Assembly: GCF_022869805.1 (NCBI RefSeq)
Contig: NZ_CP094974.1
Span: forward strand, 2,852,001-2,916,000
Direction of reading: 5' to 3'
Source of the DNA: Halosolutus halophilus
GTDB lineage: Archaea; Halobacteriota; Halobacteria; Halobacteriales; Natrialbaceae
Length of the DNA stretch: 64,000 nucleotides
Shown: one piece after another, positions 18,106-20,444 of the stretch
How the letters are laid out: every line of letters begins with the position of its first letter
Position numbering within the stretch: position 1 is the stretch's first letter
The notes under the pieces: model-generated
What the model saw: the letters and a program-made list of their open reading frames with translations, nothing else
Database searches by the model: none
Told to the model about the DNA's origin: nothing
Position numbers and translations under genes: made by a program

Positions 18106-18789
18106 TCAACTCCGGAGATTCTCGTGAATTTCCTCGATTCGTTCGCTCCCCGCGTCGACGTAGCCGCCGTGATAGCACAGCGTGTGTTCGACGTCGCGTT
18201 CGGCGAGTCGACCGACGGATTCCGTGGCACGGCTCAGGTCCGCCGTGAACTCGGGTTTCGGTCCCTCGAGCGGAGCGGCCCCGTCGGCGACGAGCGCGTC
18301 ACCGGCGATCAGCAACCCGTCCTCGGGGAACGAGAGCGAGACGTGCCCCGGCGTGTGCCCGGGGGTCGCGACGACCTCCATCGGTCCCGCGAGCGTCGGA
18401 ATTCGGACTCCGTCCGCGAGTTCGATGTCCACCTCGACCGGTTCGTACCGGTCGCCGTCGCCCTTGATCGGTTCCCGATCGCCCCTGACGTACGGTGCCT
18501 CGTCGCGATGGGTCGCGACGACTGCGTCGACGCGATCGAGCACCGCCGTCAGCCCGCCGACGTGGTCGCCGTCGTGGTGTGTGCAGACGATCAGCCAGAC
18601 GTCCGTGAGCGCGTATCCGAGATTCTGCAGGTGGACCTCGAGCGAATCCACTGCACGCTGCGGTCCGACGTCGATCAACACTAGCCCGCGATCGGTCTCG
18701 ACGACGGACGGCGTGATCGTCAGTTGGCGACCGCCGTACTCGACGTCGATCGGCAGTGCGTGAACGCCAGCTTCGTCGTGGTCGTGCAT
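18106..18789 (-). CDS. MBL-fold metallo-hydrolase
   Basis: The 227-residue protein carries the metallo-beta-lactamase HxHxDH variant THHDGDHVGG, then ATPGHTPGH, AGDALV and the final YHGGYVDAG. The first His-x-His is replaced by H-H-x-D-x-D-H (HHDGDH), which is common among hydrolase members. Substrate could be a thioester, lactone or phosphoester; glyoxalase II and lactonase subfamilies are close alternatives. ATG 18789 fits the family N terminus, and upstream frame lacks similarity. Confidence 0.85.
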   Translation of the reverse strand: MHDHDEAGVHALPIDVEYGGRQLTITPSVVETDRGLVLIDVGPQRAVDSLEVHLQNLGYALTDVWLIVCTHHDGDHVGGLTAVLDRVDAVVATHRDEAPYVRGDREPIKGDGDRYEPVEVDIELADGVRIPTLAGPMEVVATPGHTPGHVSLSFPEDGLLIAGDALVADGAAPLEGPKPEFTADLSRATESVGRLAERDVEHTLCYHGGYVDAGSERIEEIHENLRS

Positions 18790-19027
18790 ACGACACCGTT
18801 CGTCGGGGACCGAGAAAGGCTTGGGTTCTCTTCCGAGTCGTTCGCCGAGCCTCGTCACCGAACGGTCGCGGGTCCGGACCGGCGTGCAGCGGACGGTCGA
18901 TCGTCGATCCAGCCGGAGCCATCGTTCGTTCAATTCAAACGGGTTACAACGCCCTCGCTGTGTACATTCGTCGACTATCCGGGACAAAATTGAATATCTT
19001 CCAGCCGCAACCACGAGGCACCGTCCC

Positions 19028-19249
19028 ATGAGTCAGAACGTCACACTGGAACCGGTCGACGACGTTTCGGAGGACTCCACCGTCTGTCACTACGACGAGT
19101 TGAGCGAAGCGGCGAAAGAACAGTTCCCGATCCTCACCGACGATGGTCGCCGGAACGACCACGTCGACGTCGACGACGATACCATCGACGGATTGCGACG
19201 GTGTGACTTCGTCAAATACACCGACTACTACGCAATTTCGGTGAACTGA
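19028..19249 (+). CDS. Small acidic haloarchaeal protein
   Basis: The 73-residue protein contains VCHYDELSEAAKEQFPILT and ends with DFVKYTDYYAISVN. The pattern 'HYDELSEAAKxxFP' occurs in a group of small conserved haloarchaeal proteins whose function is unknown. The single Cys-x-Tyr region alone does not define a metal site. It has its own start after a 240-base spacer from the divergent MBL gene. Confidence 0.7.
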   Translation: MSQNVTLEPVDDVSEDSTVCHYDELSEAAKEQFPILTDDGRRNDHVDVDDDTIDGLRRCDFVKYTDYYAISVN

Positions 19250-19415: not shown

Positions 19416-19434
19416 TTTTAATAATATTATATAC
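19416..19434 (+). promoter_or_regulatory. Strong TATA region of the terpene-synthase-like gene
   Basis: The stretch tttaataatattatatac is the most AT-rich of the neighbourhood and includes a perfect 10-base palindrome, ATAATATTAT. Its first part lies about 28 bases before GTG 19449, as expected for a leaderless transcript. The palindrome may serve as a regulator site or may be simply the TATA box. Confidence 0.6.
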
Positions 19435-19448
19435 GAAGAGTTTCGTAC

Positions 19449-20444
19449 GTGACGAGCGAACACCTCCAATCAGAACCCGCCGGACGAGACGAACCGGTTG
19501 CCGCAGTTCGCCAGCAGGACCTCCCCGAATCGATCGTCCCACTGCTCGAAGAGTACGACGACGCCATCGGGAACAGGGATCCGTACCTCTGGCGGTGGCT
19601 CACCCATCTCTTCCCGCAGTTCACGCTCTCGTGCGTCGCCGACGACCACGCCGAGCGCGCCCAGGACGCGAAACTGCTCTCGTCGCTGTTCGTCACCGTC
19701 GTCGACGACATCGCCGAGAAACGCGGCGATCGGGCCACGTTCGAAGAGGCGATCAAGATCCCGTTCGACTACTGTCGTGCCGATCCGGACCGGCGCGGCG
19801 TCGATGCCGAAGCGATTCGATTTCTCCGGACCGTCTGGACGGAGTTCTCGACGACGATCGAGGACAGCCCCCGCCTCGGGGAATTCGGCGACGTCCTGCA
19901 GTTCGACCTGCGACAGGTCCTGCAAGCGATCGAGTACGCGAGACTGGCCGGGTCACACCTCGAACTCGTCTCGGAGCGGGACCTCTGGCGGCACGACGTC
20001 CACAACATGATGGTCTTCGTCTACGCGGACCTCGACCTCGTGAACGCGCCGTCGTTCGACGCGAGCGAACTCGGGGCGCTACGGCGACTGGTTCGGCACA
20101 CGGAGCGGATGGCCCGGATCTGCAACTGGCTCGTTACCTGGGAGCGAGAACTCACCGAGGGAGACCCCATCTCGGGGGTCGTCATCCGCGCGCTCGAGGC
20201 CGGCATTGTCTCAGTCGATCAGCTTCGAGCCGTTCAGTCGTCACCCGCCCCGGAGACCGTCGACCCGGTGATCGAGGCGGTCAGGGACAGCGATATCGAC
20301 GCCCAGTTCCTCGCGCGCTGGCAGGACGAGTACGACGAGGCGGTGACGCTCGACGCCGACCTCGACTCCGTCGACGTGGACGCCTATCTCGCGGCCTTCG
20401 AGCGAATCCTGGTCTATCACGTCGAGAGCGACGGCCTGCTGTGA
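19449..20444 (+). CDS. Class I terpene synthase-like protein
   Basis: I do not know a named haloarchaeal family, but the 331-residue all-helical protein shows both metal motifs of class I terpene cyclases. VVDDIAEK places a DDxxE at about 86-90. CNWLVTWERELTEGD gives the N-x3-T-x3-E triad at about 226, 230 and 234. The spacing of about 140 residues is that of bacterial cyclases such as pentalenene synthase. Arg 181 lies about 45 residues before the triad, where the diphosphate-sensor Arg usually sits. The C-terminal RY pair is not evident. A prenyl diphosphate substrate is inferred. The start is GTG 19449 with a strong leaderless promoter; no prenyltransferase or P450 gene lies beside it. Confidence 0.7.
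   Translation: MTSEHLQSEPAGRDEPVAAVRQQDLPESIVPLLEEYDDAIGNRDPYLWRWLTHLFPQFTLSCVADDHAERAQDAKLLSSLFVTVVDDIAEKRGDRATFEEAIKIPFDYCRADPDRRGVDAEAIRFLRTVWTEFSTTIEDSPRLGEFGDVLQFDLRQVLQAIEYARLAGSHLELVSERDLWRHDVHNMMVFVYADLDLVNAPSFDASELGALRRLVRHTERMARICNWLVTWERELTEGDPISGVVIRALEAGIVSVDQLRAVQSSPAPETVDPVIEAVRDSDIDAQFLARWQDEYDEAVTLDADLDSVDVDAYLAAFERILVYHVESDGLL

Follow-up and report, generated by a model that had tools for sequence, protein, structure and literature searches.

Terpene synthases are the enzymes that make ring molecules of the kind found in plant scents. The membranes of archaea are built from isoprenoids, yet to our knowledge few cases are known in which archaea form cyclic terpenes with class I cyclases. 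The bacterial class I diterpene synthases Sat1646 and Stt4548 carry the arginine that senses the substrate diphosphate in helix H, three residues before the asparagine of the metal-binding triad, and not in helix G; in Sat1646, a linker (Asn182) and an effector (Tyr183) are found at the break in helix G (PMC9814573). Non-canonical classes IB to IF have been described from bacteria and from other organisms (PMC11234867), and archaeal terpenoid biosynthesis is, judged by its title, the subject of Samusevich et al. (bioRxiv 10.1101/2024.01.29.577750; cited in PMC12797696).

The gene analyzed here lies in a stretch of 64,000 nucleotides from Halosolutus halophilus (contig NZ_CP094974.1, positions 2,852,001 to 2,916,000), hereafter the window, to which all positions refer unless a locus is named. 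The initial annotation described its product as a divergent class I terpene synthase-like protein, encoded by a gene that stands alone under a leaderless promoter. The gene and its immediate surroundings are as follows.

18106 to 18792, minus strand: gene for a metallo-beta-lactamase (MBL)-fold hydrolase (PF00753), the divergent neighbour; start inferred from the lengths of homologues.
19417 to 19423, plus strand: TATA-like box TTTAATA, spanning -32 to -26 relative to the GTG.
19449 to 20444, plus strand: class I terpene synthase-like gene, GTG start, 331 amino acids.

The gene was indeed found to be alone, flanked on the left by the divergent MBL-fold gene and on the right by a cystathionine gamma-synthase-type gene (Cys/Met-metabolism PLP enzyme) in convergent orientation. 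The TTTAATA box beginning at -32 fits a leaderless start, and a similar box is present in homologues, with TTTA(A/T)3 beginning at -28 to -32 in 14 of 30; its position in the window is consistent with leaderless transcription of the gene. Within the window's clade the MBL-fold gene is kept beside the terpene synthase-like gene. This link (F1) is limited to that one clade and may be plain synteny. An acidic ORF of 73 amino acids (19028 to 19249, plus strand), for which no Pfam match was found, lies between the two genes, and a sister genome has a 74-aa ORF at the equivalent place.

By Pfam search, the window protein matched PF19086 (Terpene_syn_C_2) with 24.5 bits compared to a curated cut-off of 23.7. 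The same domain was detected in all 23 close homologues (E up to 1; best 5.7e-8), 12 of which matched PF03936, and in 35 of 64 diverse family members (E up to 0.01). By hhalign, the profile built from 91 homologues, a set that spans haloarchaea and methanogens, was aligned to a profile of 13 class I synthases that includes annotated selinadiene synthase and 1,8-cineole synthase. By this approach, a score of 57 (P 1.1e-6) was obtained over 223 columns, with the DDxxE of the family placed on DDxxxE of the synthases and the family triad placed on NDxxSxxKE. By contrast, 32 unrelated neighbour families used as controls scored 25.7 or less and the reversed family scored 17; when both motifs were masked in the family, the score was still 33 (P 0.002). 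A separate hhalign run (alignment A6 vs A7) gave P 1.9e-5, and shallow profiles (A1 vs A5, i.e., 23 close homologues vs 8 synthases) gave a non-significant P of 0.038 with the register unchanged. The significance of the profile-profile comparison depends on alignment depth.

Searches of solved structures pointed the same way, as the best PDB matches in two profile searches were terpene synthases. The closest solved chain to the deep family profile was Sat1646, a weak match (E 0.036) in which the triad helix was aligned without gaps. When the window protein was used as a single sequence, no useful PDB match was found; its search against NCBIfam gave no match, which counts against the class I synthase reading. 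Searches of PHROGs, IMG/VR and phage records returned nothing useful. AlphaFold2, run on a two-sequence alignment of the window protein and one relative, gave a low-confidence model with a mean pLDDT of 44.6.

The narrow margin of the single-sequence Pfam match and the weakness of the shallow profile comparison are what a chance resemblance of an unrelated, all-helical protein might produce. Such an origin is nonetheless very improbable, given the scores of the unrelated, reversed and masked hhalign controls, the motif order, spacing and post-triad GD that are kept over the whole family, and the terpene synthases at the top of both PDB profile searches. Taken together, these comparisons show a family that, by its sequence relationships, descends from terpene synthases and keeps their putative metal-binding core. 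The original description as a divergent class I terpene synthase-like protein is borne out by the Pfam match, by the profile-profile alignment with the motifs in register and by the conservation of the ligands, which are located as follows.

19704 to 19718, plus strand: DDxxE metal-binding motif with D86, D87 and E90 (DDIAE), from conservation in 91 homologues.
20124 to 20165, plus strand: triad N226-xxx-T230-xx-R233-E234, then E237-G238-D239, from conservation in 91 homologues.

Both metal motifs were found where they had been placed, the first at residues 86 to 90 and the second at N226, T230 and E234, with 140 residues from D86 to N226. Across the 91 homologues, D86 is kept in 88, D87 in all, and E or D at position 90 in 87. 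The triad is kept to a similar extent, N226 and E234 being present in 91/91 and T230 in 90/91 (serine in the remaining one), and R233 is found in 87 with lysine in 2 more. D239 is likewise present in all 91, and the full set of invariant residues comprises R43, W50, D87, D196, N226, W231, E234 and D239. The stretch after the triad, which had been likened to the cyclase consensus GDxxNxVxxxL, was recovered as EGD at 237 to 239 followed by GVVIRAL. The triad agrees with the consensus (N,D)Dxx(S,T)xx(R/K)(E/D) except at its second position, where W stands instead of D; this NW in place of ND would count against a class I synthase.

An RY pair is typical of bacterial class I synthases, though some class I synthases are without it. 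No such pair follows the triad of the window protein, in agreement with the initial annotation, because in the profile alignment the protein ends where selinadiene synthase runs on to RY; this absence counts against the class I synthase reading. The length of the tail is nearly constant among the 91 homologues. The W-xx-(R/E)Y stretch at residues 291 to 295 was considered as an RY pair and rejected, as the profile alignment puts RY past the C-terminus.

An arginine about 45 residues before the second motif had been taken as the likely diphosphate sensor. The position is correct (R181, 45 residues before N226 and at the helix G position), but the role was not upheld, as arginine is found there in only 30 of the 91 homologues. 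Two other sites were instead compared to Sat1646.

20004 to 20009, plus strand: N186-M187, candidates for the linker and effector where helix G breaks, modelled on the Asn182/Tyr183 pair of Sat1646.
20115 to 20117, plus strand: R223, candidate diphosphate sensor within the triad helix, arginine in 85 of 91 homologues and aligned without gaps to Arg220 of Sat1646.

R223 is located exactly three residues before N226 and is replaced by methionine in the Methanosarcina clade. Judged by this conservation and alignment, the diphosphate sensor is more likely to be R223 in the triad helix than R181. N186 and M187 are kept in 75 and 78 of the 91 homologues, respectively, and lie at N-40/-39 compared to N-41/-40 in Sat1646, an offset to the triad asparagine that differs by one residue. 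Since R223 is at N-3 and N186-M187 are near the Sat1646 positions, we propose R223, N186 and M187 as a candidate effector triad.

The gene product is thus probably a class I terpene synthase, Mg2+-dependent and from a divergent archaeal family, with both fold and activity predicted from these sequence comparisons. In such an enzyme, three Mg2+ ions and the substrate diphosphate would be bound by two groups of residues, D86/D87/E90 and N226/T230/E234 (plus R233), with R233 and R223 contacting the diphosphate. Ionisation would be triggered by R223, as the diphosphate sensor, in concert with N186 and M187. The resulting allylic cation would go on to cyclise, or would be quenched, inside a hydrophobic pocket, which would give the putative product. 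With a leaderless transcript of its own, the enzyme would work independently of any obvious gene cluster. As substrate, a linear prenyl diphosphate (GGPP, FPP or GFPP) is predicted. The window genome was found to have three polyprenyl synthetase genes, a possible substrate supply, and to have no match to PF13243 or PF13249 (class II cyclase); these two findings make a linear prenyl diphosphate likelier than CPP, and a CPP route via a class II cyclase was discarded on the latter ground.

The same fold and diphosphate chemistry could also serve another reaction, whether prenyl transfer, hydrolysis to a linear alcohol or condensation. The residues that bind the diphosphate are kept while those that shape cyclisation are unreadable from sequence, and the missing RY pair, like the R43 and W50 that never vary near the N-terminus of the family proteins, would be compatible with a different outcome. 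Weighing against this are the hhalign scores of the family with polyprenyl synthetases (PF00348; 15.7) and with squalene/phytoene synthases (PF00494; 12.6), both within the null range and accompanied by no Pfam match of the window protein to either, although bona fide class I synthases also miss these two families. We consider another reaction quite unlikely and retain a class I terpene synthase as the preferred reading.

The window protein is not isolated but is a member of a family that spans the Halobacteria and some methanogens. Family genes were found in 51 of 125 genomes of the window's taxonomic family and in 119 of 392 genomes of its order (42 of 95 genera), usually as one copy per genome. 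Further relatives were detected in genomes of three more families of the phylum, which we take to be methanogens, one of the genomes presumably being that of Methanosarcina acetivorans C2A. By phylogenetic tree, the window gene groups, with 100/100 support, with the copies from a genus mate and from two further genomes of the same taxonomic family. A pattern scan of genome contigs recovered a single relative, its short exact patterns being too strict. Plasmid-borne homologues bear the RefSeq label "hypothetical protein". Two tandem family copies were observed at one locus (L069, genome G043). The copies from genomes G286, G289, G415 (second copy), G040 and G184 have stop codons or are mere fragments, which suggests recurrent gene loss.

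The genes beside family members were compared to control genes (n = 96) located five places away. Among 99 immediate neighbours at 50 loci, PAS proteins were the most frequent (13), followed by FilR1-type HTH (9) and Bat/HTH_10 (8) proteins, with HalOD1 (4), DUF7344 (3) and TFB (3) being rarer; none of these was among the families with at least two hits in the control genes. For PAS, the enrichment corresponds to a Fisher p of ~0.001, assuming one control hit. Given the relatedness of the loci and the heuristic gene caller, the enrichment of regulators is an indication only. Different kinds of regulator neighbour recur across several clades of the tree, and the Methanosarcina/methanogen homologues (L213, L221, L222 and L226) directly adjoin PAS sensor genes, as identified by eye.

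Other neighbours were of a different type. The second paralogue of genome G059 (L070) is found with UbiA, P450, SnoaL-like and class III aminotransferase genes, an arrangement suggestive of a terpenoid or meroterpenoid biosynthetic cluster, and P450 genes lie near three divergent members (L125 to L127) as well as near L070. A protein of ~175-205 amino acids, for which no Pfam match was found, is encoded next to the terpene synthase-like gene in L125, L126, L127, L122 and L109 and is also near a P450 in several loci; it is present twice in L125.

L125, 10677 to 11201 and 11266 to 11793: recurrent ~175-205-aa protein, two copies.

Near the Halobellus copy, a gene for a prenyltransferase/squalene oxidase repeat protein lies among polysaccharide genes; the protein is without DxDD and was set aside on these grounds. 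The window copy adjoins none of the regulator, P450 or UbiA genes seen beside its relatives, and no pathway genes are nearby, the latter counting against the class I synthase reading.

The enrichment of PAS, FilR1-type HTH, Bat/HTH_10, HalOD1 and DUF7344 genes beside the family, the PAS sensor genes that adjoin the Methanosarcina homologues and the absence of the RY pair would suit a non-catalytic or signalling relative that binds a prenyl diphosphate and Mg2+ and acts as a sensor or as a partner of the neighbouring regulators. A pseudoenzyme would, however, be expected to lose the metal ligands and triad that the 91 homologues retain with few or no exceptions; moreover, one member is within an apparent biosynthetic cluster, and adjacent regulators may simply control the gene. 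A signalling relative is therefore unlikely, and a catalytic class I terpene synthase is still preferred. As a tentative and rather doubtful extension, this may be an old terpene synthase subfamily peculiar to the Halobacteriota and tied to signal transduction, whose product, made on cue from PAS/Bat, HalOD1 or FilR1-type regulators, would act in haloarchaea and Methanosarcina as a signal or as a membrane-active regulator. The regulator neighbours point to a possible role other than in membrane lipids. Since the family is mostly single-copy and occurs in about a third of the sampled haloarchaeal genomes, the question of whether archaea make cyclic terpenes in this way becomes testable, and the relative in the probable M. 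acetivorans C2A adds to this.

When compared to known systems, the family is like the bacterial class I diterpene synthases Sat1646 and Stt4548 (PDB 7e4m, 7e4n and 7e4o) in its DDxxD/E-type motif, its N-xxx-S/T-xx-R-E/D triad, the putative sensor arginine of helix H at Asn-3 and the GD after the triad. These two enzymes use CPP provided by a class II cyclase, whereas the window genome is without a PF13243/PF13249 match. The canonical bacterial PF19086 synthases (selinadiene and 1,8-cineole) match the family over the 223 columns, the two metal motifs falling in register, but they have ND at the start of the triad, a sensor arginine in helix G and a C-terminal RY (invariant R305-Y306, alignment numbering), where the family has NW, a putative helix H sensor arginine and an end before RY. 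The motifs described for classes IB to IF (PMC11234867) also differ from those of the family.

The earlier view that class I cyclases are little known in haloarchaea holds only in part, as canonical ones do exist in some haloarchaea in the form of SRPBCC-terpene synthase fusions. Like the window protein, these fusions represent a class I synthase domain in haloarchaea; unlike the family, they have canonical motifs and a fused SRPBCC domain, and they were not recovered as family members. They were observed on plasmids of Actinarchaeum halophilum (L159) and Halocatena marina (L160) and in genome G047 (L032/L071), annotated as hypothetical or SRPBCC family proteins, and a polyprenyl synthetase gene adjoins the fusion in L159 and L160. 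Compared to all of these systems, the family appears as a variant that combines canonical metal motifs with NW for ND, a putative helix H sensor, no RY pair and, often, a place beside regulators.
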